A DNA stretch of 64,000 nt. Origin: Thauera sp. (GTDB lineage Bacteria; Pseudomonadota; Gammaproteobacteria; Burkholderiales; Rhodocyclaceae). The notes beneath the pieces are model-generated. The model was not told the origin of the DNA, searched no databases, and worked only from the letters and a program-made list of their open reading frames with translations. The stretch lies in NCBI GenBank assembly GCA_017302295.1, contig JAFLDS010000009.1, positions 1 through 64,000 on the forward strand, written 5' to 3'. A program made the position numbers and the translations under genes. Shown piece after piece: positions 334-17,298 of this stretch. Position 1 is the stretch's first letter, and every line of letters begins with the position of its first letter.

Positions 334-2997
<2,664 letters not shown>

Positions 2998-3100
2998 GTT
3001 GTCTCCTCTGATTGAATTGCCCGTCGGTGCTTCGCTGCCTTGCAGGGATGATTCCTGCGGTGGCGCGCCCCCTCCGGTATGCTCGGACTTCCGGCCTGCC

Positions 3101-3111
3101 TGGTCTGACCA
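3101..3111. promoter_or_regulatory. GntR/PdhR-type operator between aceE and its regulator
   Basis: TGGTCTGACCA is a perfect inverted repeat of the form TGGT-N3-ACCA, the core recognised by PdhR and related FadR-subfamily GntR regulators. It lies 104 bp upstream of the aceE start and about 160 bp upstream of the regulator start. A plausible sigma-70 promoter for the regulator, TTGATA (3119-3124), 17 bp, TATGGA (3142-3147), begins 7 bp downstream, so a bound regulator could control both directions. The repeat is seen directly; the binding protein is inferred from the adjacent gene. Confidence 0.7.
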
Positions 3112-3272
3112 AGAAATTTTGATAATGCTATCCTTAATATCTATGGAGCCGCAAGGGTCGCTGCTTGCACCTCTCAGGCGCGCTGCAGCGCAGCAATCAA
3201 GGACGTACAATCCGCGACTTCCGCCGCGTGCCTGGAGCGCGCTCAACTACCGATATCCAAGGAGGAGTCGCC

Positions 3273-4076
3273 ATGTCGTCGAGCTCATCATTCAGCGCCG
3301 TCGTGCAGCCGAGGCGTGCGCGCCTGTCCGATACCATTGCCGAGCAGATCGAGGGGCTGATTGCGAGTGGAGAACTCAAGCCTGGAGACAACTTGCCTCC
3401 CGAGCGAGATCTTTCCAAGCAACTGGACGTGTCTCGTCCCTCTTTGCGCGAGGCGCTGCTCGTCCTCGAAAGCAGGGGGTTGCTGCAGGCACGTCGCGGG
3501 GGTGGCTATTGCGTGACTGATGTGACCGCTCCGATCATTACCGATCCGCTGGTGCACCTGCTTCAGCGCCACCCCTCAACGGTTGATGACATCCTGGAAC
3601 TACGCCACGGTATCGAGTGCATCGCAGCTCAGTTCGCGGCTCTTCGCGCCACGGATACGGACATCAAGAAACTGAATGGGCTTGTGACGCGCATGCGAAA
3701 GCGGAAGGACGAATTTGATGCATTCGAAGATGCCGAGCGAGATGTCGAATTCCACATGGCAGTGGCCGAGGCATCTCACAACATCGCGCTGGTGCACGTG
3801 ACGCGCGGCATCTTCAACCTCATGCGTATGAACATGCTGCGCTCGCGGGAGGCGCTCTACCATCAACAGGACAATGTCGGACTGCTCGATGCGCAGCATG
3901 CGGAGATCGCCAAGGCAATCGCTATCCGGGATCCGGCTGCCGCACGAAAAGCGGCGAACCTGCACTTAAGCTTTGTCCAAGCCAGCTTGCGGGAGGTGGC
4001 GATGACGGACGTAGAGCAGCAAGGGGCACGCAGCAAGCGTGTGCGATCTCAACAGCGGGAAGCGGGTACAGACTAG
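3273..4076 (+). CDS. pdhR: PdhR-like GntR (FadR subfamily) regulator
   Basis: A 267-aa DNA-binding regulator with an N-terminal winged helix-turn-helix (residues about 14-80, containing GDNLPPERDLSKQLDVSRPSLREAL) and a C-terminal all-helical FCD ligand domain (about 95-240). This is the architecture of pyruvate-sensing PdhR and lactate-sensing LldR. The start was chosen at MSSSSSFSAVV because AAGGAGGAG sits 5 bp upstream; the open frame extends 36 codons further without a comparable site. Divergence from aceE and the shared TGGT-N3-ACCA operator argue for a PdhR role. The symbol is by analogy; the effector cannot be read from sequence. Confidence 0.85.
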   Translation: MSSSSSFSAVVQPRRARLSDTIAEQIEGLIASGELKPGDNLPPERDLSKQLDVSRPSLREALLVLESRGLLQARRGGGYCVTDVTAPIITDPLVHLLQRHPSTVDDILELRHGIECIAAQFAALRATDTDIKKLNGLVTRMRKRKDEFDAFEDAERDVEFHMAVAEASHNIALVHVTRGIFNLMRMNMLRSREALYHQQDNVGLLDAQHAEIAKAIAIRDPAAARKAANLHLSFVQASLREVAMTDVEQQGARSKRVRSQQREAGTD

Positions 4077-4097
4077 CGTTTCTCAAACGGCAACCGT

Positions 4098-4391
4098 CTA
4101 GTAGCGCGCCTTGTGGAAAGCTTTCCGTAAGGGGCGGCAGCTCTCGCTCACTGAACGCACAAGTTCTGACCAGTCGTCGAACGCATCGATATCCGGATTG
4201 CAGCCGACTGCTTAGGCAATGAACTTCTGGCCTCCATCGGGCCGCTGTTCGTCACGCTCGGCCAGGCAGTACACGCCCTGGTCCCTGACCAGGACGACGC
4301 GGCGTAGATTGGCTGCCGTCTCGGAAAGGACACGCTGCGGGTCGGCGCCCTCGAATCGAGCAGATATGGATGTGTCGCCAGCCAGCGGAAT
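4098..4391 (-). pseudogene. Broken ICE-associated hypothetical gene (internal stop)
   Basis: Read on the minus strand, a coherent peptide runs from IPLAGDTSISARFEGADP through VLVRDQGVYCLAERDEQRP to GGQKFIA. It meets TAA at 4212-4214, then continues in the same frame as AVGCNPDIDAFDDWSELVRS to a second stop at 4098-4100. A single base change (TAC to TAA) would explain the break. No ATG or GTG start is visible; the reading begins at an ATT six bases after GGAGG, so the start may also be damaged. It is the distal gene of the ICE module. I do not recognise the domain; a DUF3085-like protein is a guess. Confidence 0.45.
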
Positions 4392-4397
4392 GCGGAA

Positions 4398-4420
4398 CCT
4401 CCCGCCGGGTGAGCGGGAGG
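4398..4420. repeat. Hairpin between the two broken ICE genes
   Basis: CCTCCCGC (4398-4405) and GCGGGAGG (4413-4420) form a perfect 8-bp stem with a 7-base loop. There is no T tract on either strand, so it is not a typical intrinsic terminator. On the minus strand the GGAGG of the stem could act as the ribosome site of the following gene. Confidence 0.5.
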
Positions 4421-4431
4421 CTGCGCGGGGG

Positions 4432-5230
4432 TCAGTGCCGGACAGACTTGCGACCGGACAGGCAGTGCACGCGGATGCGCCGCCAACTCCCATCGTCGAT
4501 GAGGCGCTCAAGCGTCTCGCCAAGAGCATCAAAGAACACTTCATCGACCCGTTCGACCAGTTCTCGGTCACGGTGCAGTTCGACCGCGTAAAGGTCGAGG
4601 CCGCGCTTGTACTGGACAGCGACCCGCCCCTGGAACTTTGCCGTGACCACCGTGAAGGCGATGGTCGGCGGCGTCGCGATGATGTCCTTGGGCAGCGGAT
4701 CGATCCAGGTAAAGTCCCGCGCGCCGGCATCCACCAGCAGATGGGTGATACGCCGGAAACCGTCGGGAGCTGGCAACTCTTCCATCTGCTGGATAAGCGC
4801 CTGCAGCTCGGGGCAGCGAGGTACCGGGATCGGCAGCTTCGCCGGCGCGGAACCGAGCACGAACCGCTGCACCGTGTACGGCTTGCCGTCGGCGGTGAAC
4901 TCGGTGTGCTCCTCGGGCGTGTCCGCGCGCTGACCGTCGAAACGGCGTCTGACGTAGGGTTCGACCTGCACCTTGGCGCCCTCGTCGGGAACTTCGGTGA
5001 CAAGCGAGCGATCGAGCACCGCAAACTCGGCCCGTCCCGTCTTGACGACGATAGCCTCGTCGGTGGTGGCGATGACCCTGCCCTCGAAAGGGTTCGGGTC
5101 GATGTGAAAGCCCAGCGTCGAAATTCTTGGGCTCGCCGTCGAAGATGTTGAACTTGAACGAACGGACGTTGGACGGCACATGACCGACGACAAGCGTTCG
5201 CATCTGTGCACGGATGGCTTGGGTGTCCAT
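4432..5230 (-). pseudogene. Frameshifted ICE-conserved protein of unknown function
   Basis: The protein starts at 5230 as MDTQAIRAQMRTLVVGHVPS and reads to FNIFDGEPKNFDA. It then has to change frame near 5113-5118 to continue as LGFHIDPNPFEGRVIATTDEAIV and on to GRKSVRH at 4432. Without the frame change the first part soon loses family character. The restored product would be about 266 aa. The shift is consistent with loss of two bases from an original D-A-L-G coding stretch, or with a sequencing error. I know of no function; the gene lies downstream of topB in related elements. It is separated from topB here by about 750 bp without genes. Confidence 0.6.
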
Positions 5231-5982
5231 GGGGAGGCTCCTTGTGGCAACCAAGGGACTCCCGCCCGCAAGGGAGGTCGATCCCTTGAGGGTGAGGTGG
5301 ATGGACGCAGGTGCGCCCGGAGAACGAAACGACCAGCACGGTGATCCGCGCTGCAGTCTTGAAGGTCTCGACTGCCTGGGCATGGTGCTGACAACTGTCA
5401 GCAACGCATGGCCTGAGGATGGGCGCGCAGCATGGGTGCCGTCGTAGCGAAAACCGAATCGCAGACGGCCCGCTTTGGGGCAGTGGTCCGCATCAAGGAA
5501 CAAGGCCAGGACCAGGGCGCCGAAGGCCACGCGGGCCTTCGGCTGGAGAGGAAGAAGAACCACCTGTGGGCTGCGTCAGCGCTGGCCGTCGTCAAAGCCG
5601 TTCGCTGCGTCAGCAATCGCACCCGACCCGTTTCGTGGCTGGGGCCGGCAACCTCTGGCGTGCATCCACACACAAAGGGAGCCCGATGTTTCGCCGGCGG
5701 GCACCGGCACGGACTACCCTCGGCCCAAGGGGCCTCCTCACGGCTCGCTTGGCGGCAAGCCGTCGGGAAGCCCCTCATGGCCGAAGCAAGACACACCGAT
5801 CAAGGGAATGGCGGTGGGCGCGATTCGGGGAGCAGTGGCCTTCTCGCCCCGTTGTCCGATGGCGGGCAGACGGGGCGCGCGCACCGTTGCAGAAGGAGAC
5901 GTGCACTGGGGGTCCCGCGAAACGCGGGACGCTTGCCCCACCACCGGGGACGCGGCTGGCAAGGCAGAGGGATGCGTAGGCG
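5231..5982. other. 752-bp gene-free interval with strong hairpins
   Basis: No convincing coding frame was found: overlapping frames on both strands have the Arg/Ala/Pro-rich composition of shadow frames and none has a good ribosome site. Structure is visible. A perfect 9-bp stem CCGAAGGCC/GGCCTTCGG has a 5-base loop (5520-5542). A perfect 8-bp stem GTCCCGCG/CGCGGGAC has an AAA loop (5912-5930), 53 bp beyond the topB stop. An 11-bp direct repeat GCTGCGTCAGC occurs at 5570-5580 and 5604-5614. It could be a long untranslated leader or a non-coding RNA. Confidence 0.5.
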
Positions 5983-7998
5983 TCAGGTCGGCTTGGGTAC
6001 TGCGCGCCGCTTCCGTGGCCCTTCGCGCTTGCTTGCCGAGGACTCGAGCGGCAGCGTGCCCGTGCAGTCTGGATAACGGCTGCATGACCAGAACGCGCCA
6101 TTCCTTCCGGCACGCTGGTGCATCTGCGTGCCGCACTGCGGACAAGGCGGCGACGGCGGCAGCGGGATGGAAAGCGTCGTGCCCCGATGCTCCTGCACGA
6201 GCTGGGCCACCCAGGCGGATTGCTTGGCGATGAAGGTGTCCAGCGTCATCTGGCCGGCCTCGATCATGTCGAGCGCCTGCTCCCAGATGGCGGTCATGCC
6301 GGGATCGGCGATGGCGGCCGGGACAGCGTCGATGAGCGTGAAGGCCGCAGCCGACGCGCGGATGGTGCGGCCCTTCCTCAGCAGGTAGCCGCGATCGAGC
6401 AGGCCCGTGATCGTGCTGGCGCGCGTGGCCTCGGTGCCGATGCCCGTCGTCTCCTTCAGCTTCTGCTTCAGACGCGGGTCGTCCACCAACTTGGCCACGC
6501 CCTTCATCGCCTTGACAAGTTCGCCCTGGGTGTAGGGCTGGGGCGGCAGCGTTTTCAACGCCTTCAGCTCGACCTGCTCGACCCCACAGCGCAATCCGCT
6601 CGCCAGTGGCGGCAGCACCTGGCTGCGCTGCGCTTCCACACCATCGGCGGCGTCTGGCTCCGGTGTCGCCAGTACCTGGCGCCAGCCGATCACGGCGATC
6701 TGCTTGCCCACCGCCACGAGCGGCTGACCGCCGCAAGCGAGCTGCGCCACCGTGCGGTCGAACTCATGGTGCGGGAGGAACTGCGCGAGGTAATGGGCGC
6801 GGATCAGCCGGTAGACGGCCAGCTCCTTCGCGTTCATGGCCGACAGGTTGGCGGGCTCCAGCGTCGGAATGATGCCGTGGTGCGCCGTCACCTTGCCGTC
6901 GTTCCAGGCGCGCGAACGCTGGTTGCGGTCGAGTTCGCCGATCAAGGGTTTCAGGCTGGGATCGGTGGCGAGCAGTGCATCGAGCACCGTCGGCACTTCG
7001 GCAAGCATGCTTTCGGGCAAATATCCCGAGTCGCTGCGCGGATAGGTCGTCGCCTTGTGTGTCTCGTACAGCGCCTGCGCGATGTCGAGCGTCTCCTGCA
7101 CCTCGAGGCCGAGCTGACGCGAACACACTTCCTGCAAGGTGCCCAGATCGAACGGCAGCGGTGGTGCCTCGCGCATGCGTTCGGTGTCCACCGACACGAC
7201 CTGCGCATCGCGTACCGCGCGAAGGCGATCTGCAGCCTGCTGCGCCACCGTCTGTTGAAGGCAGCGATCCGCTGCATCCGTGCTGCCTTCGGGCGGCATC
7301 CAGCTCGCGGTGAAGGACTGGCCGGCATGGACAAGCAGCACATCCACGGTCCAATACGGCACGGAGACGAAGCGCGCGATCTCGCGATCACGATCCACGA
7401 CCAACTTCAGCGTCGGCGTCTGCACGCGGCCCACCGACAACACGCCGGTATAGCCAGCCTGGCGCCCCAGCAGTGTGAACAAGCGGCTCAGGTTCATCCC
7501 GATCAGCCAGTCGGCGCGCGATCGGGCGAGTGCGGAGAAATACAGTGGCAGCGTCTCGGCGGACGGCTTGAGCGCCCCCAGCGCCTTGCGGATCGACGCA
7601 TCGTTGAGCGCCGACAGCCAAAGGCGCTGAATCGGACCGCGGTAGCCGCATAGGTCGATGATCTCGCGGGCGATCATCTCGCCCTCGCGGTCGGCGTCGG
7701 TCGCAATAACCAGCTCGCCCGCCTTGGCCACGAGCTGCTGCACGAGCTTGAATTGCGCTGCGGTCGCCGCCTTGGGCTCGACACGCCAACGTTCAGGAAG
7801 AATGGGCAGTTGCTCGATGGCCCAGCGCTTGTATTGCTCGCCGTATCCTTCGGGCGGAACCGCCTCCACGAGATGACCGATGCACCAGGTCACGACGACA
7901 CCTGCGCCGCTGTAGCAGCCATTGCTGCGTTGACCGGCGCCCAGCACACGGGCGATGTCCTTGCCCTGGGAGGGCTTCTCGCACAGGAAAACGCGCAT
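5983..7998 (-). CDS. topB: DNA topoisomerase III, ICE type
   Basis: Type IA topoisomerase that relaxes or decatenates DNA through single-strand passage, here probably serving ICE replication. It is 671 aa. The Toprim domain carries DADREGE (residues 101-107), the catalytic tyrosine is in TTYPRSD (Tyr319, similar to Tyr328 of E. coli TopB), and the C-terminal zinc finger is CPQC...CSRYPDC. It is the last intact gene of the minus-strand ICE module; upstream lie a perfect palindrome at 8206-8228 and ssb. Host TopB enzymes have the same motifs, but the neighbours show that this is the element's copy. Confidence 0.93.
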   Translation of the reverse strand: MRVFLCEKPSQGKDIARVLGAGQRSNGCYSGAGVVVTWCIGHLVEAVPPEGYGEQYKRWAIEQLPILPERWRVEPKAATAAQFKLVQQLVAKAGELVIATDADREGEMIAREIIDLCGYRGPIQRLWLSALNDASIRKALGALKPSAETLPLYFSALARSRADWLIGMNLSRLFTLLGRQAGYTGVLSVGRVQTPTLKLVVDRDREIARFVSVPYWTVDVLLVHAGQSFTASWMPPEGSTDAADRCLQQTVAQQAADRLRAVRDAQVVSVDTERMREAPPLPFDLGTLQEVCSRQLGLEVQETLDIAQALYETHKATTYPRSDSGYLPESMLAEVPTVLDALLATDPSLKPLIGELDRNQRSRAWNDGKVTAHHGIIPTLEPANLSAMNAKELAVYRLIRAHYLAQFLPHHEFDRTVAQLACGGQPLVAVGKQIAVIGWRQVLATPEPDAADGVEAQRSQVLPPLASGLRCGVEQVELKALKTLPPQPYTQGELVKAMKGVAKLVDDPRLKQKLKETTGIGTEATRASTITGLLDRGYLLRKGRTIRASAAAFTLIDAVPAAIADPGMTAIWEQALDMIEAGQMTLDTFIAKQSAWVAQLVQEHRGTTLSIPLPPSPPCPQCGTQMHQRAGRNGAFWSCSRYPDCTGTLPLESSASKREGPRKRRAVPKPT

Positions 7999-8205
7999 GA
8001 AGCCCCCCGGGAAATGTGCGGTTCATCGGATGAGGGTCAGCATGGCGGGGCCAGGAGATGCCGGCAGCAAGGAAGTCGATTGGTGCGGACACCGCTTTGC
8101 GATTGGCAGGCGGTCCGTTGCTGCAGCGGTGCGGATAGACCGCGGGAGTTGGCACAGCAAGAGCGTCGTTTCGGGAGGGCGGCTGGAACTCCCTGGACAA
8201 CCTTG

Positions 8206-8228
8206 GAGCTATCCCCTGGGGATAGCTC
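8206..8228. repeat. Palindrome A, copy 1 (upstream of topB)
   Basis: A perfect 11-bp inverted repeat, GAGCTATCCCC / GGGGATAGCTC, around a single T. It lies in the 297-bp gap between the ssb stop (8296) and the topB start (7998). The same core occurs at 10128-10144 and 11187-11207. No T tract follows on either strand, so an operator or replication-protein site is more likely than a terminator. Confidence 0.75.
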
Positions 8229-8295
8229 GCTGGTGCATCGCGGGCGTACGACGGTTGCTACAGCCGCCCTCTGGGGAGCGGCGATGGGCGAATTA

Positions 8296-8676
8296 CTATC
8301 CGCCGACCGGCTTGGCACTGAGCGCCACCGACTCGATGCGGTATGGCAGGATGCCCACGCGCCGGGCCTCGACCTTGAACGTGACGCGCTCGTTCTCGTC
8401 GGCATCCTCCCACTCGTCGCGCACAGTGCGGCCCTCGACCAGCACCCGCATGCCCTTCTGGTACAGCGTCTTCCAGTGTTCGGCCTCGCGATGCCACAGT
8501 TCCACTGGCGCCCAGAAGCCGCCGCGATCTTCATAATCGCCGTCCTTCTTCGGGATCGGGTTGTCGAAATAGACGTTCAGTCGAAGCAGCCGGCGCGGCT
8601 CGTCGTTGCCGTTCTGGAATTCGCGGTAGTCCGGCGCCGAACCGATGTTGCCCTCGCCGACGAAGTGCGTGCTCAT
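8296..8676 (-). CDS. ssb: Single-stranded DNA-binding protein, ICE type
   Basis: A 126-aa single-stranded DNA-binding protein with an OB-fold core (for example GMRVLVEGRTVRDEWEDADE) but without the acidic DDDIPF-like tail of host SSB. This is usual for the SSB carried by this class of ICE. The start at MSTHFVGEGNIGSAPDYREF overlaps the stop of the preceding DUF3158 gene (8673-8676), indicating translational coupling. It probably protects element DNA during transfer or plasmid-like replication alongside TopB. Confidence 0.85.
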   Translation of the reverse strand: MSTHFVGEGNIGSAPDYREFQNGNDEPRRLLRLNVYFDNPIPKKDGDYEDRGGFWAPVELWHREAEHWKTLYQKGMRVLVEGRTVRDEWEDADENERVTFKVEARRVGILPYRIESVALSAKPVGG

Positions 8677-9221
8677 GGTGACTCCTTGGTGGTGGATGGA
8701 ACGGGCGCGGTATGCCCGTGGACACGGCGCAGGTAAGCCGCTTCGGCCTGCGCGGCCTTGCTGGCGCACGCCTGGGCTTGGCGAGCGATGCTGTGAGTCA
8801 GGCTGATCTGCATGTTCAGCACGATGCGCTGCAGCTCCATCGCATACAGCTCGTCAATCAGCGCGGCCGGCGTCGCGGAGTTGGCCAGCAGAGCCTCCCA
8901 CAACGCCACGCCCATTGAAGAACGGTCGAGATTGCGCCAGCGCAGGAAGGTCGTCCCTGCGCCAGTCGTCTGCTGGGCCAGTTGCACGCCGAGCAGGCTG
9001 AAGGGGTAGGCGCGAGCCTGGGGCAACACGCGTCGCTGTGCCAGGCCGATCACGCCATCACGCAGCGCCGTGCACTGGCTGGCCCAGTTCTCCAGACTCC
9101 CCTTACCCTTAAAAGGCTGTAAAAGGCCTTTTAGGTAGCCTGCGTGTTCCAGCCGCTGGAAGTCCGCCTGTTCCAGCGCCACGAAGCGCGTGGCGTGGCT
9201 GATGGGGGGCGATGCTGTCAT
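8673..9221 (-). CDS. DUF3158 family ICE protein
   Basis: A 182-aa protein of the DUF3158 family, found between the TIGR03761 protein and SSB in PFGI-1/PAGI-2-type elements. It starts at MTASPPISHATRFVALEQAD. No catalytic motif is visible; the C-terminal half is rich in Ala and Gln and probably helical. It overlaps both neighbours by 4 bp (ATGA at each end), so the three genes are translated as one unit. No experimental function is known to me; context suggests a part in ICE replication or maintenance. Confidence 0.75.
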   Translation of the reverse strand: MTASPPISHATRFVALEQADFQRLEHAGYLKGLLQPFKGKGSLENWASQCTALRDGVIGLAQRRVLPQARAYPFSLLGVQLAQQTTGAGTTFLRWRNLDRSSMGVALWEALLANSATPAALIDELYAMELQRIVLNMQISLTHSIARQAQACASKAAQAEAAYLRRVHGHTAPVPSTTKESP

Positions 9222-10006
9222 GCGGCGGCCCCCTCGTCACCTGCCCGACCATCGGAGGCGCCATCCGTGTGCACCGGGGCATCGGGCTCGAGGACGGGTG
9301 CAGCAGGCGGTGTGTCGTGCTTGCTCGTCCGCCGCGCGATCGGTGGCGCGAACCGCGAGCGGTGCATGCCTTCCAGCACCTGCTGTGGCAGCTCGCCGAA
9401 TTTCTCCAGCGCCGCTCGTGCCGCCGCGTTCTTCACCGCGAAGTCGGCGCGCGTCGTGCCCGAGTAGCGGTACTGCTGGGCCAGCGAGAACAGGCTGCGC
9501 AGCGCGTGTGCGCCCTCATTGAGCCAGCGCTCCAAGGTGCTGCGGTCGATCAGCGCCGTGTGGTGCGCCAGGATGAGCTTGCGTGCCAAGTCGTCGTAGT
9601 CGGCCAGCAGATACACCGCCATGAAGCCGAGCTGTGCATTCACGAACAGCGGCAGCTTCACCGGCTGCACATTCATGTTCTCGCCCAGCGACAGCGCCGG
9701 TGGCACGTCGGCCAGGGCCTGATCCACCTGTTCGCGCAGGGTCTCCAGGCGGGTCTTGGTGTCGGCGAGCTTGTCCTCGATCCGCAACATCCACCAGTCC
9801 GAGTACGGGTCGTCCTGCTCCGCGCCGCGCTTCATCTTGTTCATGGCGCCGATGAAACCGTTGAGACCGATGATGCCGGGACGCCCCTCGGTCGGTGCAC
9901 GGCCGTGCCAGATGCGAGAGGCGTGGTGCGTGTGCAGCGTCAGCGACATCGCGCTGCGCAACGATCCGAGATTCAGTTGCAGGGGTTCTGTGCGTTCGTT
10001 GGCCAT
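9218..10006 (-). CDS. TIGR03761 (PFL_4669) family ICE protein
   Basis: A 262-aa protein of the TIGR03761 integrating-conjugative-element family. Characteristic stretches are MSLTLHTHHASRIWHGRAP and GRPGIIGLNGFIGAMNKMKRG near the N-terminus. The last 45 residues are Pro/Ala-rich and probably disordered. No enzyme motif is visible. The stop overlaps the DUF3158 start. Upstream, within 140 bp of its start, is the second copy of palindrome A (10128-10144), placing this gene first in a TIGR03761-DUF3158-ssb-topB transcription unit. Confidence 0.8.
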   Translation of the reverse strand: MANERTEPLQLNLGSLRSAMSLTLHTHHASRIWHGRAPTEGRPGIIGLNGFIGAMNKMKRGAEQDDPYSDWWMLRIEDKLADTKTRLETLREQVDQALADVPPALSLGENMNVQPVKLPLFVNAQLGFMAVYLLADYDDLARKLILAHHTALIDRSTLERWLNEGAHALRSLFSLAQQYRYSGTTRADFAVKNAAARAALEKFGELPQQVLEGMHRSRFAPPIARRTSKHDTPPAAPVLEPDAPVHTDGASDGRAGDEGAAA

Positions 10007-10127
10007 CGGAGCGACTCGTGGTGAAGAAGCGAGTCGCCAGCATCGGCATCGGCCGGAAGGCTTTCAGTCAACAAACCGCAGCCCATGCGCGCCCGGTTTG
10101 ATCCGCACGGAAGGCTGTGTGTGCCGG

Positions 10128-10144
10128 CTATCCCCTGGGGATAG
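10128..10144. repeat. Palindrome A, copy 2 (upstream of TIGR03761 gene)
   Basis: CTATCCCC / GGGGATAG around a single T, perfect over 8 bp per arm. It is located 122 bp upstream of the TIGR03761 start and 46 bp beyond the RES toxin stop. It shares its core with 8206-8228 and 11187-11207. Confidence 0.75.
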
Positions 10145-10189
10145 GGTTCCGACCGGCAAGGGGCCGGAAGGTGAGACGGCGTTGCGTTG

Positions 10190-10717
10190 TCAGCGCTTCC
10201 AGCTGGATTGGTCGCGGGGTAACCGCCCGTCGGGATCATTGACCACGACGGAATTGCCGTCCTTGAGTCGATCCACGTACACGACGACATTGGTGCCGCC
10301 GTCGTTCGCCTGACTGGGGAACAGGATCCCCGCGTGGCCCTGGGCCAGCACCATGTCGCCCAGCACCCAAGTAGGCGGCTCGATGTGCAGGTCGAATTTC
10401 AGGTGGCGCCAGTCCTCACGCCAGTCGTGCCACAGCTCATCCCAAGAATCGCCCTGGTGGAGTTGCCGCAGATCGACCAGTCTGCGCAAAGTGACGGTGT
10501 ACGAACACATCGTGCAGGGCGACAGGAAGGGCGAGGTCTGCTGGTACTCGCGCAATGCGGTCACCTCCTCCAGCGACAGATACAGCGCCTCGATGCCCTC
10601 CCGGTTGAAGCGCCCACCCTTGGCCGCCGCACCGGCGCCGCTGGTGGGCCGGCTGGCCCACTGCGGGGTATGCGCGCGGAACAGTGTGGTGCCGGGCGGC
10701 AGGTCGTGGAGGATCAT
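10190..10717 (-). CDS. RES-domain toxin of a RES/Xre toxin-antitoxin pair
   Basis: A 175-aa RES-family protein. RES toxins act on NAD+ (degradation or ADP-ribosylation) and stop growth. The family's conserved Arg, Glu and Ser are represented by FRAH (Arg14), the segment ALYLSLEEVTALREY (Glu about 50-51) and later serines. The start overlaps the antitoxin stop as ATGA (10714-10717), the usual antitoxin-first arrangement. It lies inside the ICE replication module, between the STY4528 and TIGR03761 genes, so it may serve element maintenance. I infer activity from domain and context only. Confidence 0.85.
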   Translation of the reverse strand: MILHDLPPGTTLFRAHTPQWASRPTSGAGAAAKGGRFNREGIEALYLSLEEVTALREYQQTSPFLSPCTMCSYTVTLRRLVDLRQLHQGDSWDELWHDWREDWRHLKFDLHIEPPTWVLGDMVLAQGHAGILFPSQANDGGTNVVVYVDRLKDGNSVVVNDPDGRLPRDQSSWKR

Positions 10718-11085
10718 CCGGTGAACCCCGCACTGATCGACTCCAAGTAATCGATCGCATCGTCGGTGCGTCCTTCCTGCACCAACTGCAGCAGGGTCTT
10801 GTGGCGGAAAGCCGGGATGGGCTCGTTCTTGACCATGAAAAGCGCACGCGCGGTGTTCGGCTGCACTGCCGTGGCGGCCGACAGCACCCGCATGAGATCG
10901 CGCAGCGCGGCCTGCAGTCGCGGGGACTCAGGGTGAGTGCGCAGGGTGTTGCGGTGCACCCCGGCCAGCGTGGCCAAGTCCTGGTACTGCAGACCAAACG
11001 CATCGGCGACGCCCGTGGCGGAGATGTGGGACGTGCCGGCTTCACGCACCGACTCAAGCACGTCCGCGAAAGCGATAGAGGCCAT
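10714..11085 (-). CDS. Xre/MbcA/ParS-type antitoxin of the RES pair
   Basis: A 123-aa antitoxin. The N-terminal helix-turn-helix (about residues 20-60, with ATGVADAFGLQYQDLATLAG and VHRNTLRTHPESPRLQ) is followed by a C-terminal toxin-binding domain ending in TDDAIDYLESISAGF, as in antitoxins of RES toxins. The frame is open further upstream, but MASIAFADVLESVRE is the natural start. It is translationally coupled to the toxin. Copy 3 of palindrome A lies about 100 bp upstream, at the end of the preceding gene, and could belong to the promoter region. Confidence 0.85.
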   Translation of the reverse strand: MASIAFADVLESVREAGTSHISATGVADAFGLQYQDLATLAGVHRNTLRTHPESPRLQAALRDLMRVLSAATAVQPNTARALFMVKNEPIPAFRHKTLLQLVQEGRTDDAIDYLESISAGFTG

Positions 11086-11186
11086 GGCGCTGCTCCCATA
11101 GGCAAGGAATCGTGCGCATATTATACGCACAGTTAACGCACAGTGCAAAGCAGCTCTCCGTTCCCTGCCGGAAGACTCCCTGTCCC

Positions 11187-11207
11187 AGCTATCCCGTGGG
11201 GATAGCT
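11187..11207. repeat. Palindrome A, copy 3 (upstream of the RES antitoxin)
   Basis: AGCTATCCC / GGGATAGCT around GTG, perfect over 9 bp per arm. The last base is the first base of the STY4528 stop codon complement (11207-11209). It lies 101 bp upstream of the antitoxin start. The same core is found in the two other gaps of this module. Confidence 0.75.
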
Positions 11208-12409
11208 CAGGCGTCGCGCAAGGCTGAGCGCAGCCGTGCGAGGTAGGCGCGCGCCACGTCGGGGTCGGCCGGACGGGAAGCCGAAGGCGACGACGATGGC
11301 GCCGGCCCCGCGGCTCGCGGCGCGGGCGGCGCTGCTGCGTCGGTCCCCGCCCACGCCTTGAACTCCCCCCGCAGCGCCTTCTGGATGATGCCGAACAGGT
11401 AGCCCGCGGGATTGCGCACCGTGCTTCCGCCACAGCGCGCCGCCCACTCGTCGAGCACCGCCTGGCGCTGGGTTTCGTCCACCTGCTCCAGGGCCACCAG
11501 TGCGCCGGCCTGCTGCTCGTCCTTCAGGCGCAGGAAGCGCTCGGGCAGCCGGAGGTTCTGCATTGCCCTCACGCGCGGTACGGTACGTACTTCACTCATA
11601 CGATCAATACGTACTGTACGGTCCTCCTTCGGAATCCGAAGTGAGCCGTCCGATGCGGGTTTCGGCCCTGCTTCGGATTCCAAAGACGGGCGCGCGCCAT
11701 TCCGAAGCAGGGCTGCCTGGCCTTCTTCGGATTCGTGGTCCGCCCCCTCCTGTGGATAACCTGGGGTCGTCCAGCCATGCCGCGCCATGCGCTGTGCCAG
11801 TACCTGCAGGCGGGTCGGCAACATGCGGCCGCAGAGCAACGGGTCCTCGGCAATCTCCTTGAGCGTGTTCATGCCCACGATCTGTACCGCCTTGGCGGCA
11901 TGGGTCAGCGCTTGGCTCACCAGGCCGAGGTAGTCGGCATCGAGCTGCATCGCCTCGAAGGGCGACAGCGGTTCGTCGTGCAGTACGTAGAGATTGCCCT
12001 GGATGCGGCCGGTCCTGGGATCGCGTCGCCGCCGTACCAGGCTGAGCCAACGCGTCAGCCGCAGCAACGTCAGGGCGCGCGCCACGGTTTCGTGCGAGGC
12101 CTGCGCCGCACAGGGTACGGACGCCAGATAGGGGCGGATCTGGTCGTAGGTGGGAAAGGCGGTCACCCCATCGTCGTTGAGCTGAAGGCGGAACACCTGC
12201 CAGGCATTGCGCTCCAGCGGTGTCAGGCGACGATCGAGGAACAGCGCGCGCGGAACGCTCTCGTGCCGGTTGCCGCTGTACAGAAAACCATCTTGCCGCG
12301 GCCCCGCGCCCTCCCCCGATTCCCTCGGCTCAAGGTGCCGCAGCGCTTCGTCGAACAAGGCCGACAGCGCGACGGGGCCTTCGCGCCGTGGTACGTCGCC
12401 CTTGGTCAT
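11207..12409 (-). CDS. STY4528-family ICE replication protein
   Basis: A 400-aa protein of the STY4528 family, annotated as a pathogenicity-island replication protein. Residues about 55-150 (ALFLDRRLTPLERNAWQVFR ... YDQIRPYLASVPCAAQASHE) look like a winged-helix initiator or primosomal domain. The middle (about 215-280) is low-complexity and contains repeated DNA, described separately. The C-terminal part (about 290-360, FLRLKDEQQAGALVALEQVD and NPAGYLFGIIQKALRGEFK) resembles the C-termini of plasmid replication proteins. It is 3 bp from DUF2857 upstream. A replication-initiator role is inferred from family and context. Confidence 0.8.
   Translation of the reverse strand: MTKGDVPRREGPVALSALFDEALRHLEPRESGEGAGPRQDGFLYSGNRHESVPRALFLDRRLTPLERNAWQVFRLQLNDDGVTAFPTYDQIRPYLASVPCAAQASHETVARALTLLRLTRWLSLVRRRRDPRTGRIQGNLYVLHDEPLSPFEAMQLDADYLGLVSQALTHAAKAVQIVGMNTLKEIAEDPLLCGRMLPTRLQVLAQRMARHGWTTPGYPQEGADHESEEGQAALLRNGARPSLESEAGPKPASDGSLRIPKEDRTVRIDRMSEVRTVPRVRAMQNLRLPERFLRLKDEQQAGALVALEQVDETQRQAVLDEWAARCGGSTVRNPAGYLFGIIQKALRGEFKAWAGTDAAAPPAPRAAGPAPSSSPSASRPADPDVARAYLARLRSALRDA
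11577..11759. other. Candidate origin of replication inside the STY4528 gene
   Basis: Within 183 bp there are four elements. (a) An imperfect inverted repeat GGTACGGTACGTAC (11577-11590) / TACGTACTGTACGG (11608-11621). (b) Four copies of a CTTCGGA[A/T]TCC-type repeat at 11627-11641 (perfect palindrome CTTCGGA-A-TCCGAAG), 11671-11685, 11699-11707 (inverted) and 11725-11735. (c) TGTGGATAA at 11751-11759, a perfect match to the DnaA box TTATCCACA on the minus strand. (d) Position inside a replication-protein gene, as for the lambda origin inside gene O. Origin function is inferred. Confidence 0.45.
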
Positions 12410-12412
12410 GGC

Positions 12413-12973
12413 CTACACCAGTCCCTGGTCGATCCAGTTCCGTATCGCCGCCCACACCACGGACATCGGCAGGCTGAGCGCCTCGGCCAGGTCCATGGTC
12501 AGCGCCAGCATCGCCATGTCGTCGGTCAGGGCGACATGGCGCTCGGCGACGCCGGCCTTCCAGCGCTCCCACAAGGCCACGTCCTGCATCTCGTCGAGCA
12601 CCGGGTGCCGGCCCTTGCGCTTGGGCAACCCAAGGATGTCGCGGCGCAGCGCCACTTCCTGATGCGTGAGGCCGTAGAAGCTGCTGACCATCTCGGTGCT
12701 GGCTCCCAGACGCAGCATGCGGTCCACCGTGGCGATCTCCCGCTCCACATCGTGCACCTGGCTTAGCAGCCGCTTCAACACCTCCCGGTTCACCGATACC
12801 GAACACCACGACACCGTGGCATTCACCAGCATGCTCACGAGCTCGGGGTGCTTCAGCGCATCCAGCTCCTCCTCGCCGAAGCCCATCGCCTTGCAGCGAC
12901 GCAGTTGGCCGTTGTGAAGATCGTGCAGCGCCTGGGCAATGACTGCCTGATTGAGCGGATGCGGTGCCGACAT
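12413..12973 (-). CDS. DUF2857 (STY4526-like) ICE protein
   Basis: A 186-aa DUF2857 family protein. The open frame can begin seven codons earlier at a TTG, but the start at MSAPHPLNQAVIAQALHD has an ideal AGGAGG five bases upstream. The region GASTEMVSSFYGLTHQEVALRRDILGLP contains a helix-turn-helix-like segment (about residues 90-120), which suggests DNA binding. It lies between ParB and STY4528 in the minus-strand ICE operon, 3 bp before STY4528. No activity has been established to my knowledge. Confidence 0.8.
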   Translation of the reverse strand: MSAPHPLNQAVIAQALHDLHNGQLRRCKAMGFGEEELDALKHPELVSMLVNATVSWCSVSVNREVLKRLLSQVHDVEREIATVDRMLRLGASTEMVSSFYGLTHQEVALRRDILGLPKRKGRHPVLDEMQDVALWERWKAGVAERHVALTDDMAMLALTMDLAEALSLPMSVVWAAIRNWIDQGLV

Positions 12974-12990
12974 GGGAGCCTCCTGAACGC

Positions 12991-14649
12991 TCAAGACACG
13001 TGGCCTGGGTCACCGGCTTCCAGATCCAGCAGCCGGCGCGCCAGGCGCAGCAGACGGAACAGCTTTACCAGCCCGGCATCGCTCAGGCGCGTGGCCACGC
13101 CGCCGTGACCATGCAGTAGCCGGCCCAGGTCATCGGCCAGCCGCGCGCGATCCAGCCCGGTCGCGGGCGCGGATGCGGGGCTCAGCGCGTGCAGCAGGAT
13201 CAGAACCCCATGCGCGAATGCCGGCAAGGCCTTTGCCTCGTCCACGGCCGGCGTCACGCAGACGAAGCCGATGCCGCTGTCGCTGGCTTCAACGTGGTCG
13301 GCCACTGCCGCTTCGGCGGCGATTTCGCGAGCGAACTGCGCAATGTGCACGCGCAGACGATCCGGCACATCAAGGCTTGGCTCGATGTACCAGACGTCCG
13401 AAACGGGATAGAGCCCGCCGGCCTGCACCGGGATCGCGCGCAGCGCATCGCCCTCGAAGTCGGGCAGTTTGTCGCCGAGCTGGTCCGCGACCATCCGCTG
13501 GATGGACTGCAGGCGCTCGGTGGTCGGCGCCGGCGTCACGATGTGACCCCGCAGGCGCTCGTCGCGCTGGCCGTCCTGCTCCTCCGTCGCCTTGGGCGAT
13601 GCAGGCGGCGTCGCCTCTGGTGCCGGAGGCGCGGCCGACGTGGTGTCGCGCGGCGCAGACGAGACGCGTGGCTGCTGAGGCGCGGAGACAGGTAGGGGAG
13701 GAGGAGCAGGCACGGCAGGCGCTGCCAGCAGCGGCGACGGCGCGGGCTCGCTCGTCAACGCACGCTGGCGGCTTTCGCTATCGTTGATCTCCAACGCCAG
13801 CGTGTCGTAGTCCGCCTCCAGTAGCTCGGCGATCTGGCCCACCAGTTCGTCCTGCACGCGCTGTGGCGAGAAGCCCTCCGGCTGCATGTCGAACTGCGAC
13901 AGCACGTCCTGGAACAGCGAAGCGAAGTCCACAGCCAGCGGCCGGCCCAGCGCACGGCGTTCCCAAATCCGCTCGCACGCCTTGCGCAGCACCGCGAGCC
14001 GCTCTACCTGATGCCGGCCCAGCCCGCCGTAGAGCAGGCTCGGTATCGCCGGCAGCAGATAGCGCACGGCATCGTTCATCCGGCTGATGTGCGACTGCGG
14101 TACCGGATAGCCGTCGGCCGTCAGCCGCCGCGCGAGTTCGCTCTGCGACAACGCCTGCCCGCTTTCCTGCTCGTAGAACTCGCGCGCCTTTTCGATACCC
14201 AACGCGCGCTCGATGAAGGTCAGCCCACCGCGCAGCTCGTTCTCGGCCAGATGCCCTGTCAGCGCCACAATTTCGCCGCGCGCCGGCCATGGACGAAACA
14301 GGCACGCAATGCGGAAGAAGCGCTCCTCCCTGGTCTCGCTCCACAGTTCCCGCAGGATGGCCAGCCGCGTGTTGCCGCCATTGCGAATGATGTAGTGCGT
14401 CTCGCCCGGCCTGCGCGTGATCGCGGGAGGCGCGTCCAGCCCGCGTTCGCGGATGGAGGCCTTGATCTCCGAATAGGCCGGGTTGCGAGTCACGCGCGGG
14501 TCATGGTCGTAGGGCCGCAACTGGTCCAGCGTCACCACCATCGGCGTATCGGCGATGGGGTCGCTCAAGGCCGCGGCCGAAGGGCCGCTGCGCTCGAAGC
14601 CGGTGGTCAACAACTTGGCAGCCATGTCCTGGGGCGTCAGCTCAGCCAT
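12991..14649 (-). CDS. parB: ParB-family partition protein, ICE type
   Basis: A 552-aa ParB-family protein, longer than chromosomal ParB (about 280-300 aa). The N-terminal ParB/sulfiredoxin-like domain (about 35-140) contains VVTLDQLRPYDHDPRVTRNP and IRNGGNTRLAILRELW, where GGNTR replaces the usual GERR-type box. A helix-turn-helix follows (ALSQSELARRLTADGYPVPQSHISR). A Pro/Ala/Ser-rich linker (about 315-385) joins a C-terminal domain seen in ICE ParB proteins. The start at MAELTPQDMAAK overlaps the parA stop by 8 bp; the longer frame lacks a ribosome site. It probably loads ParA-dependent partition or stabilisation of the excised element. Confidence 0.87.
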   Translation of the reverse strand: MAELTPQDMAAKLLTTGFERSGPSAAALSDPIADTPMVVTLDQLRPYDHDPRVTRNPAYSEIKASIRERGLDAPPAITRRPGETHYIIRNGGNTRLAILRELWSETREERFFRIACLFRPWPARGEIVALTGHLAENELRGGLTFIERALGIEKAREFYEQESGQALSQSELARRLTADGYPVPQSHISRMNDAVRYLLPAIPSLLYGGLGRHQVERLAVLRKACERIWERRALGRPLAVDFASLFQDVLSQFDMQPEGFSPQRVQDELVGQIAELLEADYDTLALEINDSESRQRALTSEPAPSPLLAAPAVPAPPPLPVSAPQQPRVSSAPRDTTSAAPPAPEATPPASPKATEEQDGQRDERLRGHIVTPAPTTERLQSIQRMVADQLGDKLPDFEGDALRAIPVQAGGLYPVSDVWYIEPSLDVPDRLRVHIAQFAREIAAEAAVADHVEASDSGIGFVCVTPAVDEAKALPAFAHGVLILLHALSPASAPATGLDRARLADDLGRLLHGHGGVATRLSDAGLVKLFRLLRLARRLLDLEAGDPGHVS

Positions 14650-15628
14650 GGCCGATCTCCTGCGCCTGCCGGTCAGCGCGGCGAAGCTGCGCGCGGGCAT
14701 TGCGGTCGGCACGATGGTCGCTCGCCGTCGCGCTGGTGTAGATCGACGTGCAACCTGGTTTCGTGAATTTCAGGTGTCCACCGGACGTTCGCACCACGGG
14801 CCGGCCGGTGACCAGCGCAAAGCGCTCCCGCCAAGCGGGGAACAGCTCGCCGGCCAGCGTACGCATGGTCTCCAGTGCCGCGGGCGCCGTTCGCCCAGCC
14901 GGCTGCCGGTACTCCACCCGATGCACCGGCAATCCTCGTGTCGCAGCGCGTGGATAGGCTTCGATGGCCGGCACATCGGTGTCCAGCACCTGCACACCGG
15001 CCTGTTCCTGGAACACCTGTCGCAGCGCCTGCTGGACCATCCGCGCGTTCGACGACACCGGATGCACACGGTTGATGAGCAGGCGCAGCGGCGGCGGCTC
15101 GATGCCCAGGTGCCGATACGGCGCGATGTCCTCAATCAGTTGCAGCGTGCCGCGCCGCAGCTCGCGCGCCGCAAGGATTTCCGGTGTTACCGGCGACAGC
15201 GCGAGGTCAGACGCCAGCACTGCCATCTCCAGCAGCACACTGCGCGCGCCCTGCGTATCGATCAACAACAGGTCGTAGTGCGTGCGGAAAGTGGGAAGCA
15301 AATGCCGCAGTCGCAGACGCCCGTCCGGAGCGTGCAGCAGCAGCGTGCTCAGCTCACCGCGGTCGTCGTTGGAGAGCACCAGATCCAGGCCCACGATCGC
15401 GGTGCGCGACACCAGTTGCTCGATGCGCCGCTCGTTGAAGGCCAGCATCTCGTAGATGCCGCCGGGCGCGCGCACGCTCAGCATGAAATAGCTCGACAGC
15501 GTGGGCTGCACGTCCAGGTCCAGCAGCAGCACGCGTAGCCCCGCATCGGCGATGAAGCCGCCGAGGTTGGCTGCCGTCGTGGTCTTGCCGACGCCGCCCT
15601 TGGTCGAAATGATGGATACCACCTGCAT
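14642..15628 (-). CDS. parA: ParA-family partition ATPase, ICE type
   Basis: A 328-aa MinD/ParA-type ATPase. The deviant Walker A KGGVGKTTTA (residues 10-19) follows the start MQVVSIIST, and LLLIDTQGARSVLLEMAV forms the switch/Walker B region. The start is set by GAGGAG upstream of the ATG; the frame is open 38 codons further without support. The last 50 residues are basic and Arg-rich. It is homologous to ParA/Soj of ICEclc and PAGI-2, needed there for element maintenance. It is translationally coupled to parB and 40 bp after alpA. Confidence 0.92.
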   Translation of the reverse strand: MQVVSIISTKGGVGKTTTAANLGGFIADAGLRVLLLDLDVQPTLSSYFMLSVRAPGGIYEMLAFNERRIEQLVSRTAIVGLDLVLSNDDRGELSTLLLHAPDGRLRLRHLLPTFRTHYDLLLIDTQGARSVLLEMAVLASDLALSPVTPEILAARELRRGTLQLIEDIAPYRHLGIEPPPLRLLINRVHPVSSNARMVQQALRQVFQEQAGVQVLDTDVPAIEAYPRAATRGLPVHRVEYRQPAGRTAPAALETMRTLAGELFPAWRERFALVTGRPVVRTSGGHLKFTKPGCTSIYTSATASDHRADRNARAQLRRADRQAQEIGHG

Positions 15629-15668
15629 GCGCTTCTCCTCGTCGAATGGCATGAACCGCGAAGAAGCG

Positions 15669-15887
15669 TCAGGCGCGTTCTTTGAGACGATCGGAGATCC
15701 ACTGTTCGATCTCCACCGAATCCCAGCCCACTGCACGCACACCCAGGCGCAGCGCCTTGGGGAACTTGCCTTCCTTCATCAGGCTGTAGATGTGCGCGCG
15801 CTTGAAGCCGGTCTTGGCTTCGACCTCGGCGCGGCGCAGGATACGGTGCTCGGCCGTCGCCGCCGTGGCGGTGGTCTGCGAAGACAT
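15669..15887 (-). CDS. alpA: AlpA-family DNA-binding regulator
   Basis: A 72-aa protein with a MerR-like winged helix (ILRRAEVEAKTGFKRAHIYS, then MKEGKFPKALRLGVRAVGWD). This is the AlpA (Phage_AlpA) fold of small excision or operon regulators. The ATG at 15887 is preferred to a GTG three codons upstream because AGGAG is eight bases before it. It opens the alpA-parA-parB unit, just downstream of a tandem palindromic operator (15961-15995). It may be a regulator of that unit or an excision factor. Confidence 0.88.
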   Translation of the reverse strand: MSSQTTATAATAEHRILRRAEVEAKTGFKRAHIYSLMKEGKFPKALRLGVRAVGWDSVEIEQWISDRLKERA

Positions 15888-15960
15888 GAGAGTCACTCCT
15901 TAACGCTCTGTAGCGCTGATTGGCGTGACTCGAATTTGGAACGCCGCGTCGAGGAAAGAC

Positions 15961-15995
15961 ACCGTAAATGCGGTATCCGCGACCGCAGATGCGGT
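15961..15995. promoter_or_regulatory. Tandem palindromic operator upstream of alpA-parA-parB
   Basis: Two 14-bp units 21 bp apart start to start (two helical turns): ACCGTAAATGCGGT (15961-15974) and ACCGCAGATGCGGT (15982-15995). The second is a perfect inverted repeat ACCGC-N4-GCGGT and the first differs at one arm position. They lie 74-108 bp upstream of the alpA start, where an autoregulator such as AlpA or ParA/ParB would bind. A centromere-like site is the alternative. Confidence 0.6.
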
Positions 15996-16005
15996 CTGGC
16001 ATCGC

Positions 16006-16767
16006 TCAGAGAATCGTGCGCTGCAAATTGCGCCGAGCCATTGCGAACTTGGCCTGCAGGGTGCGTTCGTTGATGCCCATCGCGTTGCCGTGGTGCGCCA
16101 CCATCGCACTGATGATGGCCTCCTGCGTCAGGAAGCTGGAATACGGCATGCCGCTGGGCGCCTTGCCCAACAACAGCGTCAGTAATGCGCCAACGATGTT
16201 CAGGTAGGTCGATTCGCTGCGCGGCCCCGGCGTGTTCGCACGCTCGGCGTCAGCCGAACAGGCGGCGTGCTGCTTCAGCAGCGCCTCGTGCTCGACGCGC
16301 AACGTCTCGTGTGCGCTTAGAAATTCCGCCAACCGCACCTTGATCACTTCCCGCTCGGCCAGCAATGCGCCCACCGTGTCCAGACTGACCGCCGGGTGAA
16401 GCGCGCGCTCAACCTCGTCGAACAGAAACGCCGGCTTCTCGCCGGGGTAGTAGTGCGCCATCCAGGCTTTCAAGTCGACGTGCCGCACCGTCAGCGACGG
16501 ATCGTCCAGTTCCAGGCCCTGCGTGTCCCGCACCAAGCCCTCCTTGCCATAGGGCATCTCGCCGTGAGTGAGCGCATCGAAGACTCTTTCGGTGTTCAAG
16601 CGCAGCAACGGCCAGCGCGGAAACTCCGTTGCCTCCGGCAGAGGCCGCCGCCCCAAGGTCGCCAGGATGCGCCGCTCGAAGCGCAACAATCCGCTCCAGC
16701 GGATTGCTGCCTCGATCGGGCGGTAGTAGATCTTGGCGCCATCGACCAGCCTGCTCGACTTCGGCAT
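16006..16767 (-). CDS. Conserved ICE protein upstream of alpA-parA
   Basis: A 253-aa protein of unknown function, regularly found beside parA in this type of ICE and sometimes mislabelled as a kinase; I see no kinase motif. The start at MPKSSRLVDGAKIYYRPIEA is supported by GGAGG eight bases upstream. An ATG five codons earlier has no ribosome site. Residues about 140-180 form a likely coiled coil (REVIKVRLAEFLSAHETLRV). The C-terminal part has a conserved SESTYLNIVGALLTLLLGKA segment and ends in a basic helix. It ends 11 bp before the tandem operator. Confidence 0.7.
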   Translation of the reverse strand: MPKSSRLVDGAKIYYRPIEAAIRWSGLLRFERRILATLGRRPLPEATEFPRWPLLRLNTERVFDALTHGEMPYGKEGLVRDTQGLELDDPSLTVRHVDLKAWMAHYYPGEKPAFLFDEVERALHPAVSLDTVGALLAEREVIKVRLAEFLSAHETLRVEHEALLKQHAACSADAERANTPGPRSESTYLNIVGALLTLLLGKAPSGMPYSSFLTQEAIISAMVAHHGNAMGINERTLQAKFAMARRNLQRTIL

Positions 16768-17298
16768 ATCGCACGCCTCCATTCGTCATCACACCCGGGG
16801 CACGTACGCGCACCCGCCATACAGGCGGCGTGCGTGGACGTCCAGGACGTCTCGGGGCAAAACGAGCAGGTGAAGCAGCGGCGGAGTCTGTGGCATCGGT
16901 GATGCCGCCTTTACCAGCGCGGGATGTGCCCCTTGTCGTGCATGGCCCCATCACGCAAAATTCCTAAGCTGCGAAAACTGCCATAGACATACTTAGCCGC
17001 GGGCGCCGTGCTTGACCCGGAAAGCCAGGCCAAAGTCTTTGCAGGGAAATGCACCTCGTAAAGCGCGATCAACTCAACACCTCAGGACCGATACGCATAT
17101 CGCAAGCACTCTTGCGCTGCGCGTCTTTGCTGTGACGGGTCACGATATGCATGCGACTCTCATCGCAGAATGCCAACCGCAAGCGCAGACAAGGGCTGAG
17201 TAACTGCGCCAGCGGACCGCAGTAAGCAATTCCGGCCGTGGCAAAACAGGTCTGGCGCTTTGACCAAAATGGAATCGGCCAGCCCGCCTTCAACAGCC
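16768..17298. other. 531-bp interval between ICE module and LysR gene
   Basis: No well-supported gene was found. One minus-strand frame, 17069-17302 (77 codons, MRLLKAGWPIPFWSKRQT), begins by overlapping the LysR stop as ATGA but has no recognisable family or composition. I do not call it. The stretch must hold the promoter of the minus-strand ICE genes; the AT-richer part around 16955-16995 is the likeliest place, but no clear -35/-10 pair is visible. Confidence 0.4.

Follow-up and report, generated by a model that had tools for sequence, protein, structure and literature searches.

A candidate replication origin inside the gene of its putative initiator, STY4528, in a Thauera contig and related mobile elements

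Integrative and conjugative elements (ICEs) of the ICEclc/PAGI-2/pKLC102/SPI-7 group are vehicles for the spread of catabolic and resistance genes in Proteobacteria, and how the excised elements replicate, apart from the action of the relaxase, is unsettled in the field. Could such an element carry its origin inside the gene of its own initiator? The question is raised by a stretch of 64,000 nucleotides from Thauera sp. (GenBank assembly GCA_017302295.1, contig JAFLDS010000009.1, positions 1-64,000; hereafter the window), which encodes a protein of the STY4528 family. A sequence-only reading had noticed four CTTCGGA-type repeats, an inverted repeat and a perfect DnaA box lying together in the middle of this gene, and had proposed a lambda-O-like origin there. 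All of these features are present, and the idea of an in-gene origin appears well supported by comparison with relatives, through the palindromes, the enrichment of DnaA boxes and the linkage of site letters to a helix of the protein. We consider STY4528 to be the probable initiator of an ICE/plasmid replicon family with the origin inside its own gene, with a rough probability of 0.7. By computation, the locus and its relatives show constraint at the DNA level, family-wide sites, preferred spacings, DnaA-box enrichment, co-variation with the recognition helix and predicted disorder of the linker. The gene and its sites are as follows.

11207-12409, minus strand: STY4528-family gene, 400 aa, proposed initiator (NF040582, 396.4 bits, above the curated cut-off of 130, over residues 40-352)
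11564-11776, minus strand: proposed origin segment, encoding the predicted disordered linker (residues 212-282), delimited by predicted local distance difference test (pLDDT) scores and synonymous identity
11578-11619, no strand: inverted repeat GTACGGTACGTA (11578-11589) / TACGTACTGTAC (11608-11619), 12 nt, 92% complementary, candidate unwinding region
11627-11641, no strand: perfect 15-bp palindrome CTTCGGAATCCGAAG, kept in relatives
11671-11685, no strand: palindrome with one mismatch, CTTCGGATTCCAAAG, 44 bp from the first palindrome
11701-11707, no strand: half-site TCCGAAG, in opposite orientation to the half-site at 11725
11725-11731, no strand: half-site CTTCGGA, kept in register in relatives
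11751-11759, minus strand: DnaA box TTATCCACA, the sole exact DnaA box within the 64-kb window

The four CTTCGGA-type copies thus resolve into one perfect palindrome, one palindrome with a mismatch and two oppositely oriented half-sites, with centre-to-centre distances of 44, 22 and 32 bp. The two palindromes lie in different reading frames, and neither 44 nor 22 is divisible by 3. The inverted repeat GTACGGTACGTA/TACGTACTGTAC, of the GTACGTAC type, is conserved. Binding-site-like sequences repeated in the centre of the gene are a feature of in-gene origins, and the base composition is also as expected of one: an A+T-rich stretch adjoins the sites, with an A+T content of 0.52 at 11577-11640 against 0.32 for the whole gene, and the lowest G+C content of the gene (0.50-0.52, in 60-base windows covering 11560-11649, against 0.68 overall) falls here. 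In the 4.1-Mb genome there is a single exact copy of the palindrome. Simple pattern counts showed no significant excess, either for the palindrome with up to two mismatches genome-wide (11 places against 18 for a control pattern), for the palindrome with up to three mismatches in the window (2 against 1.54 expected; 44 of 100 shuffles reached 2) or for GTACGTAC with up to one mismatch in the window (9 against 5.06 expected; 8 of 100 shuffles reached 9). An equally good pair of palindromes arose in 3 of 200 synonymous-codon shuffles of the window gene (L020), and its exact 9-mer pairs (51, against a shuffle mean of 21.7) exceeded those of all 100 shuffles. The repeats are therefore only moderately unusual in this single sequence; they are far beyond chance, and decisive, once relatives are compared.

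Among the close relatives, defined as the best 80 of 294 stretches encoding a related protein, both palindromes were exact and always 44 bp apart in 73, and at least one was exact in all 80. Both half-sites were in register in 79, and the DnaA box TTATCCACA was exact in 76, at a distance from the first exact palindrome of 74 bp in 75 relatives and 118 bp in the remaining one. Synonymous sites were analyzed in 39 non-redundant genes, all of the window's clade and below 95% nucleotide identity (L023, L024 and L020 were left out). Synonymous codon identity reached 0.80-0.93 in 11-codon windows inside 11567-11779, compared with 0.40-0.82 elsewhere, whereas amino-acid identity in the same segment was 0.59-0.86, below most windows of the two protein domains and above the variable C-terminal tail. 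This combination of a synonymous peak with lower protein identity indicates that the constraint acts on the DNA. The suggestion that an embedded origin would account for poor conservation of this part of the gene holds for the protein but not for synonymous sites, at which no other stretch of the gene is as well conserved.

To cover the family as a whole, we made 1,182 genome searches (in sets of 199, 369, 398, 197, 11 and 8 genomes, some of them repeated) and 499 more around two other families, together with searches of plasmid records (33 with a match) and viral contigs (4, 2 and 1 loci, partly on the same contigs). This gave 297 loci, from which 24 with an STY4528 match spanning less than 250 aa were dropped, and the remaining 273 were reduced for redundancy to 128. 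As the proposal of an in-gene origin would predict, repeated palindromes were found at the same place in pKLC102, pSGI4, ICEHin1056 and elements of Klebsiella, Pantoea and Stutzerimonas; the lowest protein identity to the window STY4528 is 22.6%, in ICEHin1056. Across distant relatives their letters drift from GTTCGGA-TCCGAAC to GTTCCAA-type. In a blind scan, the best pair of 17-bp palindromes in each gene was compared with 200 synonymous-codon shuffles of that gene; 90 of the 128 genes beat every shuffle and 98 had no more than two shuffles as good. Amino-acid repeats, considered as a source of the sites, were rejected, because the sites lie in different frames and the shuffles preserve the protein.

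Spacings and DnaA boxes were counted in 97 genes, with the 30 genes that failed the scan and L129 left out. The 254 spacings between neighbouring sites were concentrated at 44 bp (92) and 45 bp (24), 22 bp (30), 32-33 bp (49), 54 bp (20) and 66 bp (4), with a best period of about 11 bp. Near the palindromes there were 50 DnaA boxes, where shuffles gave 5.8; the rest of the genes had 2, with 2.8 expected. Because many of the genes come from the window's clade, the 50 boxes do not count as independent. Genes that lack the palindromes have other inverted repeats in or near the linker: GTACGTA-containing ones in L023, L024 and L246, and AGTAGTAGT-type ones in L135, L138, L154 and L268.

What in the protein could read such sites? 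A structure model built from a 25-sequence alignment (mean pLDDT 62.9, predicted template modelling score 0.55) placed helices at residues 64-75, 88-96 and 106-118, which with two strands form a predicted winged helix whose recognition helix starts at residue 106 (pLDDT blocks of 68 and 90). Residues 212-282, with pLDDT below 50, form a predicted disordered linker that coincides with the DNA of the sites and is followed by a helical C-terminal domain. Prediction from the single sequence was useless (pLDDT 36.5). The two structured parts concerned are listed here.

12056-12094, minus strand: recognition helix, residues 106-118 (106 and 107 encoded by 12089-12094), from the predicted model and co-variation
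11369-11566, minus strand: C-terminal helical domain, residues 282-347, from the model, with weak RP-C_C matches in some relatives

The letters of the sites appeared to follow residues 106 and 107 of the recognition helix of STY4528 itself, on few independent switches. Columns of the STY4528 alignment were ranked over 96 rows; L129 and L143 were dropped because their best pairs lay in a 3' array or an odd palindrome (the linker palindrome of L129, ACTTCAAAATTTGAAGT, would with E106 fit the code and was not counted). Linker columns were set aside, being themselves encoded by the sites. The pairs of residue 106 with base 2 of the half-site were R-G in 52 rows, H-C in 37, K-G in 3, E-C in 1 and N-C in 1, with N-G and T-T, one row each, as exceptions; outside the linker, no other column did as well for base 2 as this one (H106; 1 error in 96). 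Base 6 was G in all 66 rows with E at residue 107 and C in all 15 with K, and varied with other residues. On a quick tree built without the recognition helix and linker, both independent pairs of switches agreed for base 2, as did both for K107 with C6. The chemistry is plausible, as arginine or lysine goes with G, and glutamate would face C on the other strand. STY4528 itself is the probable binder of the palindromes.

These observations suggest how the origin may work. Two N-terminal winged helices, that is, an STY4528 dimer, would bind each palindrome, as the symmetry of the palindrome implies. With several sites roughly whole helical turns apart, the bound proteins would line up along one side of the DNA as a nucleoprotein complex, and in many clades DnaA, at its box, may assist. 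On one edge, the A+T-rich stretch with the inverted repeat would melt, and the C-terminal domain would bring in the helicase, either the element-borne DnaB present in several relatives or that of the host, for replication in a putative theta mode. A dnaB gene lies in the same cluster in six of the plasmid/ICE stretches examined. Since the DNA of the sites also serves as coding sequence, the part of the protein that it encodes would be a tolerant, unstructured linker. With a candidate initiator, its sites, their spacing and the reading residues named, the question of ICE replication becomes directly testable; if true, the reading would help to explain the plasmid lifestyle of some elements and give a basis for predicting which of them can coexist. 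The broader proposal of a distinct initiator family, with theta replicons, a RepABC-like par-rep module, a code in which residues 106/107 specify the letters of the origin and predictable compatibility groups, is to our mind an even bet.

The gene stands in a module that invites comparison with known replicons. Its other main genes are listed below; the names bisC and bisD appear in the available text on ICEclc (PMC7423338).

5983-7998, minus strand: topoisomerase III gene (topB) of the module (PRK07726, 868.8 bits)
9218-10006, minus strand: PFL_4669 family gene (TIGR03761, 284.6 bits)
12413-12994, minus strand: DUF2857 gene, bisC in ICEclc (PF11198, E 3.5e-63)
12991-14712, minus strand: ICE-type ParB gene, bisD in ICEclc (TIGR03764, 399 bits)
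14642-15742, minus strand: ParA-like gene, open reading frame as listed, putative start (PF13614, E 4.4e-26)

By sequence, STY4528 belongs to none of the RepC, RepA_N and lambda O families: the window protein had no Pfam match, and so neither the RepC domains of RepABC plasmids nor the RepA_N domain, and it had no match to an O-like family. NCBI names the NF040582 family 'replication protein'. The record of plasmid A252 shows STY4528 and no further annotated initiator, in a gene table incomplete by design; a Pantoea plasmid carries another initiator gene besides STY4528. A sequence search of solved structures returned no match for the STY4528 protein, and a Foldseek search of viral models returned weak ones, led by a phage helix-turn-helix protein (E 0.0045) and including, lower in the ranking, a RepA-like initiator (E 0.27). 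In PHROGs, single relatives matched a primosomal family (E 2.5e-5) and a replication initiation family (E 0.0057), and in a set of eight members two matched phrog_391 and two phrog_678 (best E 0.0036 and 0.03).

The best reading, by analogy, is that the STY4528 origin would work like the in-gene origins of RepC, pSK41 Rep and lambda O. According to the part of PMC3155836 available to us, the oriV of repC lies mid-gene, silent changes there abolished replication, and p42d repC has neither iterons nor DnaA boxes. The window resembles RepABC plasmids in that par genes adjoin the initiator gene, the proposed origin is in the middle of that gene and relatives give weak RP-C_C matches; unlike p42d, it has iterons and a DnaA box, and a DUF2857 gene separates parB from the initiator gene. 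The pSK41 rep gene, as excerpted from PMC5703833, has four central Rep boxes, encodes there a linker dispensable for replication and specifies a winged-helix N-terminus. The same three traits (sites in the gene centre, a linker encoded there and a winged-helix N-terminus, the last two here predicted) recur in STY4528, whereas pSK41 Rep, a RepA_N protein, shows no sequence match, belongs to Gram-positive hosts and binds DnaG with its C-terminal domain. In lambda, iterons lie inside the initiator gene O beside an A+T-rich stretch, as the sites do here, and two of eight relatives had O-like PHROG matches. The lambda iterons are nearly adjacent, whereas the present sites are 22-54 bp apart and linked to partition genes, and the window protein itself had no O-like match.

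The sequence-only reading knew of no origin described at this place, which has to be amended. In 2009, a putative oriV with four copies of the palindrome CTGAGTTCGGAATCCGAACTCAGT was reported next to PFL_4669 in PFGI-1 of P. fluorescens Pf-5, which in the text seen is said to encode no Rep protein (PMC2647930). It has the same palindrome family as the window and the same neighbour; it differs in adding a second, G+C-rich repeat half and, in that text, was defined in silico and was not placed inside an initiator gene. Putative oriVs are also mentioned for ICEHin1056, pKLC102, SPI-7 and PAPI, with no location stated in the part available (PMC2258188). In open-licence literature text, the palindrome letters occurred in PMC2647930 only, the name STY4528 came up in two papers, and the passages retrieved held no statement placing the palindromes inside an initiator gene or having STY4528 bind them. 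pKLC102 carries such palindromes inside its own STY4528 gene, and the original study of that element reportedly claimed an oriV. The palindromes as a putative oriV of PFGI-1 were thus already described; the in-gene location and STY4528 as the candidate binder are added here.

Several results weigh against STY4528 as an initiator with an in-gene origin. The palindrome test was failed by 30 of the 128 genes, among which 10 had an excess of exact 9-mer pairs (no more than 1 of 100 shuffles as high) and 20 had none; with 20 lacking any repeat excess, some branches appear to have lost or replaced the sites. The spacing period, a sign that the sites may be aligned along one side of the helix, was computed without a null model, and its peak was weaker for distinct spacings alone (0.56 compared with 0.89). 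Columns F151, R128 and G302 tracked base 2 nearly as well as residue 106 (2 errors in 96), and W353 equalled E107 for base 6, which is what clade structure would lead one to expect. Of two independent pairs for E107 with G6, one agreed and one did not differ, long branches meet in the quick tree, and with so few independent switches significance is unreachable. The structure model is of moderate quality, and Foldseek found no significant match in the PDB (best E 1.4). Links to RepC are weak and short (RP-C_C at 14.2-15.3 bits against a cut-off of 32.6, over 24-36 residues, in 5 of 10 relatives), and O-like PHROG matches were confined to two members of the eight-member set, with none listed for a nine-member set. 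GC skew gave a weak detrended minimum at the STY4528 gene in one plasmid record and no minimum there in a second, which has a second initiator gene. Finally, the available text of PMC6561031 reports that ICEclc copy number depends on the relaxase TraI and oriT1.

This last dependence also favours the strongest of the alternatives, in which the working origin lies elsewhere, in a 3' array or at oriT together with the relaxase, and the sites inside the gene serve to load no more than an accessory factor. (Our gradings of the alternatives are rough, and the figures behind them do not sum to one.) Tandem arrays with 57-bp and 36-bp units overlap or adjoin the 3' end of STY4528 in relatives (L111, 7278-8318; L119, 5066-5624; L120, 5217-5412), and pKLC102 and others have repeat arrays at this end. 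The published PFGI-1 putative oriV, as far as its text was available, includes a G+C-rich repeat half. The arrays resemble either a centromere of the sopC type or a second part of the origin. However, positions 9900-12500 of the window gave no tandem array, almost every member of the window's clade has the in-gene sites, and relaxase and plasmid-type origins may coexist. We therefore regard an origin elsewhere as unlikely, if deserving of attention.

Less probable still is that the palindromes are parS-like partition sites, bound by the ParB encoded two genes upstream and located in STY4528 by proximity. The ParA and ParB genes do adjoin STY4528, and parS sites are often clustered palindromes. 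This explanation is weakened by the site letters, which appear to follow the recognition helix of STY4528, by the concentration of DnaA boxes beside the palindromes, and by the 57-bp/36-bp arrays, which have palindromes of their own beside the gene and are a better centromere candidate in several relatives. About equally improbable is an operator through which STY4528 itself, or the BisDC activator (ParB/DUF2857), would control the operon. The sites lie deep in the gene, most of them 600-880 bp away from the start, and the palindrome in its exact form has no second copy in the genome. Moreover, the 27-bp motif of eight ICEclc transfer promoters had no other significant match in ICEclc, according to the portion of PMC9286271 available, and a separate palindrome, TATCCC-GGGGATA, occupies three intergenic gaps of the module. 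Pure coding constraint or chance might be argued from the window alone, given the 3 of 200 shuffles and the non-significant pattern counts, and is practically dismissed by the family-wide protein-preserving shuffles, the different frames and the synonymous conservation.

The TATCCC palindrome, TATCCC[CG]NGGGGATA, is a candidate operator of a transfer regulon. Its copy at 8210-8224 precedes topB, that at 10129-10143 precedes the PFL_4669 group and that at 11190-11204 directly follows STY4528; the second and third lie inside a 37-nt repeat, and no other place in the genome matched it with up to one mismatch. Among 80 relatives, 55 had three copies, 18 had two and 7 had one. Between STY4528 and PFL_4669, at 10190-11096, a RES-domain gene and a small open reading frame form a probable toxin-antitoxin pair; in P. 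veronii (L117) a RelE/ParE-type gene occupies this slot.

The whole replication/partition module (5983-16782) is flanked on one side by aceE (TIGR00759, 1518.5 bits) with a PdhR-like regulator gene (below cut-off), and on the other by chromosome-like genes (ycaO, ccm-type genes, napA and spoT). No integrase or transfer gene was seen among the window open reading frames tested, and the only TIGR03744 transfer ATPase gene of the genome is on another contig (C27). This copy, whose second palindrome has a mismatch, is possibly a remnant or else belongs to an element that has been split. In the circular plasmid NZ_CP076684.1, several of the same protein accessions occur at both 1766-9094 and 108351-115678, as if the assembly were untrimmed. 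A record from a phage collection, MT837871.1 ('Bacteriophage sp.', 6,062 bases), encodes at 3209-4189 an STY4528 relative with 42.0% identity over 78% of the query, and represents either a small element or a fragment.
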